Shown here in pieces: positions 25,024 to 28,583 of a stretch of 64,000 bases of DNA. The notes beneath the pieces are model-generated. The model searched no databases, had not been told where the DNA came from, and worked only from the letters and a program-made list of their open reading frames with translations. A program made the translations under genes and the position numbers. The stretch comes from a virus. Numbering within the stretch: position 1 is the stretch's first letter; each line of letters opens with the position of its first letter. Location: positions 1 to 64,000 of IMG/VR virus record IMGVR_UViG_3300028800_000003. One strand, written 5' to 3'.

Positions 25024-25509
25024 TCAGAACGGAATTTCGTCGTCGATCGGCGGCGCCGATTGGCGCTGCTGCCGGGCTTGCGCGCTCGGGCCAGGCGAAC
25101 CAAAATCATCGCCGCCAGATTGTTGCTCCTGGTCGCCACCGTTGCTGTTGCTGTTGCTGTTGTTGCCAATCAGCGTGATGGAGCCGTCGTAGGCCTGCAA
25201 CACCACCTCGGTCGAGTAGCGATCCGTGCCGCTCTGATCCTGCCACTTGCGCGTTTGCAGTTTGCCCTCGATGTAGACCTGCGAGCCTTTTTTCAGATAC
25301 CGCTCGACGATCTTGCACAGACCTTCATTGAAGATCACGACGCGGTGCCACTCGACCTTCTCGCGACGCTCACCGCTTTGCTTGTCCTTCCAGGTGTCAG
25401 AGGTAGCGATACGCAGATTGGCGATCGGTCGACCGTCTTGCGTGCGACGAATCTCAGGATCGGCGCCGAGGCGACCGAGCAGAATGACTTTGTTGACCGA
25501 ACCGGCCAT
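25024..25509 (-). CDS. ssb: Single-stranded DNA-binding protein
   Basis: The 161-residue protein has the OB-fold of bacterial SSB ('[20 protein letters not shown]', '[20 protein letters not shown]', '[17 protein letters not shown]'), a Gln/Asn-rich linker and the acidic tip DDEIPF that recruits partner proteins. It coats single-stranded DNA during phage replication and recombination. The linker contains an NSNSNS run made by a GTT/GCT hexanucleotide repeat (about 25141-25165). A leader with ACCCCTAC and ACGGAGCAAA precedes it, although the gene directly follows the helicase gene. Confidence 0.97.
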
Positions 25510-25540
25510 GGTGTTTGCTCCGTTGTGTGTAGGGGTTATG
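25508..25540 (-). promoter_or_regulatory. ACCCCTAC/GGAG leader of ssb
   Basis: On the minus strand this reads ATAACCCCTACACACAACGG then AGCAAACACC before the ATG at 25509. It fits the leader family and overlaps the end of the helicase gene. The GGAGCAAA part is complementary to the candidate small RNA. Confidence 0.55.
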
Positions 25541-27101
25541 CCGCTTGTTTTTCACGCTGGGCGTCGGTGCGGCGTTTCGACTTTGCCCATGCAATGTTTC
25601 GTGACGTAATCCAGGATGAAGTTTCTACGCTGATCTGATCCGCAGGCGCAACATTTTTTGTCACTGGCCACACACCGAATTTCTCGCGGTATTTGTTCAG
25701 CGCCCAGCCTTCCTTGTAGCCCTTGTCGAGCGCGTATCGTTTCAATTCACCGAGGACGACATTCTTTTCCTCCAGCGTATATGTGCGTCCGTCTTTCTTC
25801 GCCTGTTTCAGCTCCTCCAGCTTGCCGGACTTGACCTCGACGCCTTCGAGTGGGCCAATGCGTTCGGCAACGAAGCCGCAGGCCGGACACTTTGCCATTC
25901 TGGCACGTTTAAGGAACCCGCACTGCGGGCACTCCTTCGGCAGCCGGACCTGAATGTCTTCGCTCGCGGTCTCCTTGGTCTTGCCATCGTTCAACTTATT
26001 GTGGCTGGCATCGATGTCGGTGACGAAGCCGAGACGCAAGTGATTGTCGCTGTGATCAAGAATCAAGCAATGGTCCTTGCCATCGGCGGTGCGCAGACCG
26101 CGACCGACGATCTGCACGAATAACATTTCCGACTTGGTCGGGCGCGCCAGAACGATGCAGCGGACATCCCAGTCGACGCCAGTGGTAAGCGTACCGACGT
26201 TGACCACTACCTCGATCGAGCGGTCACGAAATCCGTTCTCGATTTGCTGGCGTTCCTCGCGCGGGGTACTGGCGTCCTGATAGGCCGCATTCACGCCTGC
26301 CGCGGTGAATTGTTCCTGCAACAGCTTGGCGTGATCGCAATCTACCGCAAACACCAGCGTCGGCCGCCGCTCTGCCTTCTCTAGCCAGGTCTTGACGATG
26401 TCGGCGACCAAGAACTTGTTGCTCATGCGCGCCGACAGGTCGGACTCGTTGTAGTCTCCGGCCACGATTCGCACGCCGGTTAGATCGGGATGGCTCGGTG
26501 CGAATACCTTGAAATCGGACAGGCGCCCTTTGTCGATCAGTTCTTGCGTCGTGATCGGACGCACGAAGCCTGGGAAAAATGCCCCTAGCCCTTTCGTCCA
26601 TGGCGTCGCCGACAGGCCGATGAACGGCACCTTCTGCCACTCCGGTCGCGTCAACCAATCCTCGTAAAAACGGAACCATTTATGCACCTCGTCGATGATG
26701 ACGAGGTCGGCCTCTGGAACCCGCGGGCGACGCTGCAATGTCTGCACGCTGGCGACCTGTACCGGCCGGCTCCAATCGGTCATTTCGTGATTGGCCTGGA
26801 TCACGCCAACATCGCGAATGCCGTCCTCATAAAAGCGCCGCACTGTCTGATCGACCAGGCTGATCGCCGGAACGGTGAAGATCAGGCGCTTGTTGTTGTC
26901 GAGCACGTTGTTGACCAGTTGCGCCGACAGCACGGTCTTGCCGTAGCCGGTCGGTGCCTGCATGACGACGCGCGGCAGGTTGCGTTGTGCTTCGGCCATA
27001 TTGCCGCGTGCTTCTGCCTCACGCCGGTTCTGATTGAGGCGCGCCAGCTCCCATCGCAAACCGTCAATACCGTTTACCTGATCGTCACGCAGCTCGCGCA
27101 T
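25536..27101 (-). CDS. SF2 DNA helicase with C-terminal zinc motif
   Basis: All main superfamily 2 motifs are present in the 521 residues: motif I APTGYGKT (49-56), motif II DEVH (137-140), motif III SATP (164-167) and motif [10 protein letters not shown] (330-337). A CPQC/CPAC zinc motif lies at 391-408. It probably unwinds DNA at the replication fork. The ATG at 27101 is preferred over a GTG at 27113 because it follows GAGGTGAGGGAG. It overlaps the primase gene by 17 bases. Confidence 0.93.
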
Positions 27102-28104
27102 TGACTCCCTCACCTCGCAACATTGTCAGTCCGTGGCAGAACGCGCGCGCTTCGCTACGCATCACCAGCCAAACATCGTTCCAATCGTCTCCAGTATTCG
27201 ACGGAATGCGCACCTCGACAGTGAGGTCTCGCTTTTTCAGGTCGTCTGTCGACAGATGCCGAGCGAGCATGAAAGCTGCGCTCTGGCCGACAAAGTTGGA
27301 GTCGTTATCGCCGAACACGATGACGCGCTTGACGCCGGCCGGTGGCTGCCAAGCCTGCAAGCCGACCTCGTTGATCGCTGGCCACACCGGAATGCGATAG
27401 ATCAGCGACGCCGCACGCGCGGTCTCGATGCCTTCGGCAACGCCAATGGTCTCGGCAACGCCACCCAGGCGCACCGCAGCTCCTTTCGGAAACGGGCCAG
27501 GCATCAGCTTGCGACACGGATCGACGTTCGCCTTGCGGCCGTCTGCGGTCAGGAACGTCCGGTGAATTGTCGTCGGCGTGCCGTTCACGTCGCGCACCAT
27601 GGCGATCATGCCGTGGTGTTCCGACCGCGCGCCGGTGCGAGGGTCCTTGTGATACATCGCCGGCACGTAGCGCAGGTCAGGGTCGATCCAATTCAGACCG
27701 CCCCGCATCTCAAAATAGAGCGCTACAGGATCGTTTTTCTCGACTGGCCGCCCACTCGCCCACAGACGATTGCAAGCGGCCTTGTGGTCGATTTTACGGG
27801 CCGGCTTTTTCGCGGGCGCGTCCTTCGGCAAGTTCCCGATGATCTCGTCGACACGTTTGCACGCTTCGGCAAAATCCCAGCCGCGGAACTTGGCGATCAG
27901 ATTGATGCCCTTGCCGGCGCCGCACTGCCGGCAGATGTAGTCGCCGTCACCATGCCGATCGTCATAGGTGAATCGATCGCGGCCCCCGCACAACGGACAC
28001 GGCTGCGCTTTGCCATTAAGGATCGACAGAGGAAGGTCGAGGGCGGGCAGGATTTCCGCCCAGCGCCCGTGCGAGGCTTCGATGGTGTTGGTGTTACGAG
28101 TCAC
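27085..28104 (-). CDS. DNA primase with zinc ribbon and Toprim domain
   Basis: The 339-residue protein has an N-terminal zinc ribbon, CPLC (36-39) and CRQC (58-61), of the Prim_Zn_Ribbon type. The later part 'ETIGVAEGIETARAASLIY' and 'VKRVIVFGDNDSNFVGQSAA' is a Toprim_3-like catalytic core with the conserved Glu and DxD-like pair. It makes RNA primers at the fork, next to the helicase and SSB genes. Its start overlaps the stop of the replication protein upstream. Confidence 0.92.
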   Translation of the reverse strand: MTRNTNTIEASHGRWAEILPALDLPLSILNGKAQPCPLCGGRDRFTYDDRHGDGDYICRQCGAGKGINLIAKFRGWDFAEACKRVDEIIGNLPKDAPAKKPARKIDHKAACNRLWASGRPVEKNDPVALYFEMRGGLNWIDPDLRYVPAMYHKDPRTGARSEHHGMIAMVRDVNGTPTTIHRTFLTADGRKANVDPCRKLMPGPFPKGAAVRLGGVAETIGVAEGIETARAASLIYRIPVWPAINEVGLQAWQPPAGVKRVIVFGDNDSNFVGQSAAFMLARHLSTDDLKKRDLTVEVRIPSNTGDDWNDVWLVMRSEARAFCHGLTMLRGEGVNARAA

Positions 28105-28583
28105 TTAAACACCTCCTCCTCGTCTTGAATCCCCTTCCTTTCCCCTTCCCTTCCCTTCCCTTCCCCTTTACGAGAAAGGGAACGCGTGGTTGACGCGTCG
28201 GCCACGCGTGCGGCACGCGTAGAAATGCTGTCTTCATGGGGTGAAGGCAGCTTGCTTGGCGATTCGCGATTGTTGATGACCTGATGATCATGCCAGGTCG
28301 GGATGAAGCCGTAATCCTCGCCGTCGAACGCGTACTTGACGACAAAGCCACGCGTGGCCAACGCGTCGAGCACGCGTGAAAAATCGATGTCGTCGTATGG
28401 CAGGCAGTAGGTTTTCAATGTGCGCGGCCGCCAACAGAAACGACCTTCGCGATCCACCACGGTGAACAGCGCGATGAAGGCAAGCCGTAGCGGCAAGCCA
28501 GTTTCTTTCTCGGCGTCAAACAGCTTCTCGTGCTTGAACAGGCCGGGTTTTACGGTACGGATGCGGGGCTCTTGCATCGGCAT
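28101..28583 (-). CDS. Phage replication initiation-like protein
   Basis: The first 110 residues (RIRTVKPGLFKHEKLFDAEK, then LPLRLAFIALFTVVDREGRF) match a widespread phage protein associated with replication, with a winged-helix-like N terminus ('FSRVLDALATRGFVV', 'INNRESPSKLP'). The C-terminal 50 residues are low in complexity (GEGKGREGERKG). The gene body contains two arrays of ACGCGT at exact 11-bp steps and a G-rich run, so the origin of replication is probably inside it, as in the lambda O gene. The protein would then bind its own gene. This last step is inference. Confidence 0.75.
   Translation of the reverse strand: MPMQEPRIRTVKPGLFKHEKLFDAEKETGLPLRLAFIALFTVVDREGRFCWRPRTLKTYCLPYDDIDFSRVLDALATRGFVVKYAFDGEDYGFIPTWHDHQVINNRESPSKLPSPHEDSISTRAARVADASTTRSLSRKGEGKGREGERKGIQDEEEVFK
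28131..28166 (-). repeat. Homopurine tract with G-quadruplex pattern
   Basis: The minus strand has at least four GGG runs separated by AA over 36 bases, with no pyrimidine. This can form a G-quadruplex or triplex. It lies in the 3' end of the replication protein gene, next to the ACGCGT array. Confidence 0.7.
28182..28377. repeat. ACGCGT iterons at 11-bp spacing, candidate replication origin
   Basis: ACGCGT starts at 28182, 28193, 28204 and 28215, each 11 bp apart. A second array starts at 28328, 28350, 28361 and 28372, also in 11-bp steps, with a degenerate copy (ACGACA) at 28339. The step is not a multiple of three, so the coding frame cannot explain it. Sites on the same face of the helix are typical of iterons bound by a replication initiator. 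The 113 bases between the arrays are less GC-rich and could be the melting region. Confidence 0.65.

Follow-up and report, generated by a model that had tools for sequence, protein, structure and literature searches.

The window analysed in the present study is a 64,000-nucleotide stretch (positions 1 to 64,000) of a 119.7-kb virus record from IMG/VR. On its minus strand, a replication initiator gene is followed downstream by genes for a primase, an SF2 helicase, and a single-strand DNA-binding protein (Table 1). The stop codon of the initiator gene overlaps the GTG start of the primase gene (GTGA). Two arrays of the hexamer ACGCGT and a polypurine tract lie within the initiator gene.

Table 1. 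Features of the replication locus (positions in the window)
Feature	Position	Strand	Basis or details
Single-strand DNA-binding protein (SSB)	25024-25509	-	Profile matches
DEAD/ResIII (SF2) helicase	25536-27113	-	Profile matches; same operon as initiator
Primase, zinc-ribbon/Toprim	27085-28104	-	Matches only the first half of phrog_510
Replication initiator gene, 160 aa	28101-28583	-	PHROG replication-initiation matches and AlphaFold2
Polypurine tract, 40 nt, putative unwinding element	28130-28169	-	(A)GGGAA repeats; uninterrupted pyrimidine run on + strand
Iteron array II	28182-28220	-	Four ACGCGT, exact 11-bp steps; gene nt 364-402, linker-coding DNA
Iteron array I	28328-28377	-	ACGCGT at 28372, 28361, 28350, and 28328, degenerate ACGACA at 28339; 11-bp pitch

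The initiator protein matched four PHROG families annotated as replication initiation (phrog_16167, 1408, 17247, and 2149; E 2.6e-36 to 1e-16). The match to phrog_16167 (E 2.6e-36) covered residues 7-129 of the protein and positions 3-121 of the 315-position profile. The annotation of these families covers the protein only, with no iterons or origin attached. No Pfam match was obtained even at E up to 1, nor was any NCBIfam match, and a sequence search of solved structures did not identify a relative. A Foldseek search of the PDB had no match at E up to 0.001; the matches listed comprised only generic winged helices and no phage or plasmid initiator. AlphaFold2, run with 63 relatives, predicted a winged helix with confidence (for residues 11-110, block means were mostly 91-98), placing helices at 53-60 and 68-77 and strands at 82-86 and 89-93, and a disordered tail at residues 121-160 (block means 52-60). 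The predicted layout is a winged-helix DNA-binding domain at approximately residues 7-110 and a disordered linker, without a C-terminal domain. Initiators of the PHROG 16167 type are two-part proteins of about 300 aa; the window protein shares their N-terminal DNA-binding domain, as judged from the profile match, but at 160 aa does not share their C-terminal domain. Since most relatives are longer (median of about 280 aa from the domain start), the window protein has lost the usual C-terminal domain. It is among the shortest initiators of its family.

The replication module of the window is also unusual in combining this short initiator with a primase that matches half of phrog_510 and in the absence of a detectable DnaB or IstB/DnaC-type gene; DnaB_C, IstB, and Phg_2220_C were not found anywhere in the 119.7-kb record. 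In several relatives, a gene for a P-like loader, a DnaC-like/AAA ATPase, or DnaB follows the initiator gene.

A sequence-only reading of this DNA had listed eight ACGCGT sites (28182, 28193, 28204, 28215, 28328, 28350, 28361, and 28372), and all were confirmed. ACGACA at 28339 was also verified by direct inspection. The 64-kb window contains 21 ACGCGT, against 30.4 +/- 5.4 expected from dinucleotide shuffles, and eight of these 21 are packed into 196 bp. The pattern ACGCGT-N5-ACGCGT occurs five times per strand in the 119.7-kb record, always in the two arrays, and the reversed control pattern does not occur in the whole record. The initiator gene holds eight sites, five pairs at 11 bp, and three triples. 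In 5,000 synonymous-codon shuffles, which preserve the protein and its codon usage, the means were 1.19 sites, 0.06 pairs, and 0.00 triples, and the maxima were 5, 2, and 1, respectively. The phased pattern is far beyond chance. The earlier argument that the protein sequence cannot cause this spacing was borne out, as synonymous shuffles almost never reproduced it.

Outside the arrays, ACGCGT is scarce in the window (13 sites versus approximately 30 expected from dinucleotide shuffles). Possible reasons are that extra sites would titrate the initiator or expose the DNA to restriction, as ACGCGT is the MluI site.

Relatives were collected by searching annotated phages, IMG/VR, and GTDB genomes at the protein level, which yielded several hundred loci; their hosts included Alpha-, Beta-, and Gammaproteobacteria, Acidobacteria, and others. 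A scan of viral contigs with the single protein gave no matches, and alignments were needed. The 183 non-redundant homologs found by protein contained 727 ACGCGT, 373 pairs at 11 bp, and 145 triples, whereas synonymous shuffles of the same genes gave 105 sites, 3.45 pairs (maximum 11), and 0.15 triples. In the non-redundant set, distances between ACGCGT pairs up to 60 bp peaked at 11 (461), 22 (234), 33 (64), and 44 bp (38). When the window gene was included (184 genes), both arrays were present in 100 genes, only array II in 29, only array I in 6, and neither in 49. The sequence-only reading had held that its interpretation would fail if relatives kept the protein and lost the phasing. Relatives at about 40-75% protein identity mostly retained the 11-bp phase, and where the word differed, both arrays had changed together. 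The position skipped in array I (28339 in the window) was never ACGCGT in the 116 relatives with this array and was usually NNTCGT on the coding strand, which covers TGTCGT, the complement of ACGACA. The skipped position is thus also a family trait.

We also examined the spacing between arrays I and II, which formed clusters at 157-159, 167-170, and 178-183. The best period (11.5-11.75) was broad and phylogeny was not removed; therefore, a preferred spacing was rejected and we make no claim of a helical phase between the arrays. Two homologs are encoded on circular replicons, a 46.6-kb replicon of Bradyrhizobium (L352, NZ_CP094518.1) and a 54.2-kb replicon of Endozoicomonas (L353, NZ_CP103299.1), which carry repressor-like and phage-type genes and are apparently phage-plasmids. 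NZ_CP081787, considered as a small E. coli plasmid and natural minimal replicon, turned out to be a lambdoid fragment, linear and 6.2 kb long, and was rejected as evidence.

The sites of array I fall in three different reading frames, in the codons for S69-R70-V71, D73-A74-L75, T77-R78, and Y84-A85-F86. In the AlphaFold2 model, these residues make up the helix at 68-77, which occupies the recognition position of the winged helix, together with a portion of the first wing strand. Array I was located at the same codon positions in the 116 non-redundant relatives. In genes with array I, R70, A74, T77, and R78 were present in 99, 99, 91, and 89%, respectively, versus 10, 18, 10, and 26% in genes of the same word without array I. 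We note that the two groups of genes also differ by descent. The residues that tracked the word in genes both with and without array I were 45, 46, 48, 51, and partly 102. The simplest reading is that the DNA site dictates the residues encoded by array I.

A repetitive short peptide or a codon bias may also generate ACGCGT as a by-product of coding. The peptides SRV, DAL, and TR do recur at the array positions, and conservation of the protein could keep part of array I. However, the 11-bp step spreads the sites over all three frames, the shuffles described above almost never gave the pattern, and the Leu of D-A-L was encoded by TTG or TTA (TTR) in 107/119, versus 25% elsewhere in the same genes. 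We also scanned IMG/VR DNA for three ACGCGT at 11-bp steps, ignoring the protein, and obtained at least 120 loci; the array was within the ORF of this initiator in 104 of 120 contigs among the matches listed. The same scan at 12-bp steps, an informative control in that this spacing is divisible by 3 and could arise from a peptide repeat, returned 24 contigs, none with the array in an initiator (0/24). The shuffles and this control refute a coding artefact for the family of the window initiator, and we leave this explanation virtually no probability.

Homologs without ACGCGT revealed other words. Mycobacterium phage Fishburne has TCGCGA, and a Desulfuromonadales locus has GGGAAGC; in each case the word occurred in both arrays and at the same positions as the ACGCGT arrays of relatives. 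DNA scans placed the TCGCGA array inside the initiator ORF in 103/120 contigs and the GGGAAGC array in 14/26 loci. When array II held at least three phased copies, array I was ACGCGT in 57 and TCGCGA in none of the 80 genes with ACGCGT in array II, while it was TCGCGA in 36 and ACGCGT in none of the 62 genes with TCGCGA in array II; mismatched words were thus observed in 0/142 genes. The pattern scans enrich the samples for ACGCGT, TCGCGA, and GGGAAGC; however, they do not force arrays I and II to agree, and the set found by protein alone also showed this agreement. In a tree built from 240 DNA-binding domains, word changes numbered 3, versus 78-92 (about 83) for shuffled labels, and this result held with the columns of array I removed.

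The possibility that the arrays bind a factor other than the initiator, such as a partition protein, a host regulator, or a methylase, needs to be considered, because phased short palindromes also occur at centromeres and operators, and some relatives reside on circular plasmid-like replicons. However, the word follows the DNA-binding domain of the initiator, it is common to hosts of several phyla, and the arrays lie in the initiator ORF in the large majority of contigs in the ACGCGT and TCGCGA scans. We consider the involvement of another factor extremely unlikely.

Further variants were noted. Four loci from the Bordetella, Escherichia, and related group (L006, L009, L158, and L168) carry GTGCAAG/CATGCAAG-like repeats near 11-bp steps at about gene nt 310-360, followed by CTGATTC repeats and not by a purine tract, and represent a further dialect. 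Two other initiator genes (L394 and L395) each contain three TCGCGA arrays (about gene nt 368-390, 449-482, and 541-563), which suggests array duplication. Four IMG/VR contigs (L313:11193, L265:19, L254:8000, and L328:1418) have 11-bp ACGCGT arrays without a match to the initiator profile, and TCCTGTCCTG pyrimidine tracts adjoin the arrays in L313 and L265. These arrays possibly belong to another initiator family with a similar origin.

The polypurine tract of the window begins 12 bp beyond array II. An equivalent tract was present in 129 relatives, with a median length of 42 nt and a median start 24 nt after array II. Its units are mostly GGGAA and GGAAA; the tract matches itself at a period near 5.25 nt, and all three frames contain GGGAA. 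A purine run was on the coding strand in 210 of 305 non-redundant genes and a pyrimidine run in only one; some of the other genes had GATTC repeats in its place. The 11-bp position just downstream of array II started with ACGC in 85 of 143 genes, and the position just before it ended with GCGT in 2. Array II accordingly fades into half-sites towards the tract, which gives the array a direction. Since the tract is G-rich and not AT-rich, easy melting is not obvious.

We concluded, with a probability of roughly 0.9, that the ACGCGT arrays are a phage replication origin located within the gene for the initiator that binds it; binding and initiation are inferred. The earlier interpretation of the arrays as iterons in an initiator gene is supported, in that they behave as cognate iterons of this initiator. 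That reading had overlooked the polypurine tract and the placement of array I in codons for a predicted DNA-binding helix. Computation established the arrays, their phasing, location, and conservation, the co-variation of the two arrays, their co-inheritance with the DNA-binding domain, the tract, and the gene neighbourhood. That the initiator binds these sites and that replication starts there are inferences whose support is limited to co-variation and co-inheritance. Also inferred are the opening of the tract, the loading of the helicase, and whatever part array I plays.

We propose that the winged-helix domain binds ACGCGT iterons one DNA turn (11 bp) apart. Initiator molecules would occupy array II, adjacent to the tract, and array I, which lies about 157 bp upstream, and would stack along a single face of the helix. 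Once assembled on array II, they may stress the adjoining (GGGAA)n tract until it opens, and the replicative helicase and primase would then be loaded at the opened tract. Array I probably stabilises the complex through looping or cooperative wrapping, or controls it through titration or autorepression. The opening of the tract by an R-loop is an attractive though untested idea, given the stable hybrid expected of a purine-rich transcript. The helicase-loading route of the window phage is the least certain, since its initiator has no C-terminal domain and no DnaB/IstB-type gene was found in the record.

A more extended version of this reading may be envisioned, and we regard the arguments for and against it as evenly balanced. 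Selection on the DNA site would have dictated the protein at the recognition-helix codons that hold array I, from which it follows that the initiator and its site form one inseparable, co-transferred unit. Both arrays would have exchanged their word together approximately 3 times (ACGCGT, TCGCGA, and GGGAAGC), with the 11-bp pitch and, in most genes, the (GGGAA)n tract on the coding strand being kept, and the tract may open via a transcription-made R-loop or a G-quadruplex.

Initiators often autoregulate, and the arrays may instead be operators through which the initiator shuts down transcription of its own gene or blocks RNA polymerase, with replication starting elsewhere. Binding by the encoded protein would explain the co-variation and location of the arrays equally well, and array I is well upstream of the tract. 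However, both arrays are within the coding region, and the layout of an array followed by a tract fits phage origins in initiator genes, such as those of lambda and SPP1 oriL (PMC6316719). We consider operators in place of an origin very unlikely, although autoregulatory binding of the arrays is not excluded. The sequence-only reading had proposed cumulative GC skew as a means to locate the origin. The curve continues to fall beyond 28 kb and does not turn until about 47 kb, and the linear record may be a fragment; GC skew was rejected as an origin marker because it does not turn at 28 kb. Since it was of no help, use of the 28.1-28.4 kb site as an origin is inferred and not measured. Binding, footprint, replication, or marker-frequency data on the family of the window initiator were not found in the open-access literature, nor was an earlier description of ACGCGT iterons in initiator genes (subscription journals were outside the scope of the search).

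The origin reading provides a concrete and testable origin for a large phage family of Pseudomonadota, Acidobacteria, and Actinobacteria, whose initiator records, where examined, carry no origin annotation. Hundreds of distantly related viruses share the layout, some with a different word in both arrays. The DNA signature, a hexamer at 11-bp steps with a purine tract, may be used to find origins in viral dark matter, and the natural series of matched protein-site pairs offers a route to how an initiator reads its site. If binding is as inferred, the family also illustrates clearly how a regulatory DNA element can be imposed on codons for the very domain expected to read it.

The RepA_N initiator Rep of pSK41 has a winged-helix N-terminal domain that binds Rep boxes central in rep, and its ori encodes the linker domain (PMC5703833). 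The window family likewise has a predicted winged-helix N-terminal domain and repeats inside the initiator gene. However, the C-terminal domain of pSK41 Rep binds DnaG, and the window protein has no such domain. A RepA_N domain was not identified in the window protein by Pfam at E up to 1, and the RepA_N structures 4pt7 and 5kbj gave middling VIA-align Z scores (5.8 and 5.7), values that many unrelated winged helices also reach. In SPP1 oriL, direct repeats in gene 38 lie beside an unwinding element (DUE), followed by the genes for the loader gp39 and the helicase gp40 (PMC6316719). The window family shares with oriL the placement of repeats inside the initiator gene and beside an unwinding element, which is putative in the window family; SPP1 differs in that its element is AT-rich and in having a second, distant origin, oriR.

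The likeness to lambda O put forward in the sequence-only reading stands for the layout, iterons within an initiator gene. No sequence homology to lambda O was detected, and hhalign of the window family against a lambda O/P22 profile (thin, two sequences) gave a probability of 0.1. The likeness is therefore one of layout and not of family. In lambda, and also in P22 gene 18, the origin lies inside the initiator gene, in the linker just past the N-terminal DNA-binding domain, as inferred here; the lambda iterons occupy gene nt 349-433 and array II nt 364-402. Like the palindromic ACGCGT, each lambda iteron is an inverted repeat (PMC7466680). Lambda has an A-rich purine tract on the coding strand after its iterons, where the window family has the (GGGAA)n tract, and lambda replication requires transcription through the origin (PMC3985674). 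The lambda O-P gene order is matched in relatives with a loader gene after the initiator. The four iterons of lambda are 18-19 bp long and follow each other at 20-, 24-, and 23-bp steps, whereas the window family has 6-bp palindromes every 11 bp and a second array in the codons of the DNA-binding domain. Two features expected of a lambda-type origin, sites in the initiator gene after the DNA-binding domain and an asymmetric tract adjoining the iterons, are both present. The best reading, with binding and initiation inferred, is a lambda-type origin of new geometry, in which the palindromic iterons are one turn apart, a second array lies on the recognition-helix codons, and the adjoining tract is (GGGAA)n.
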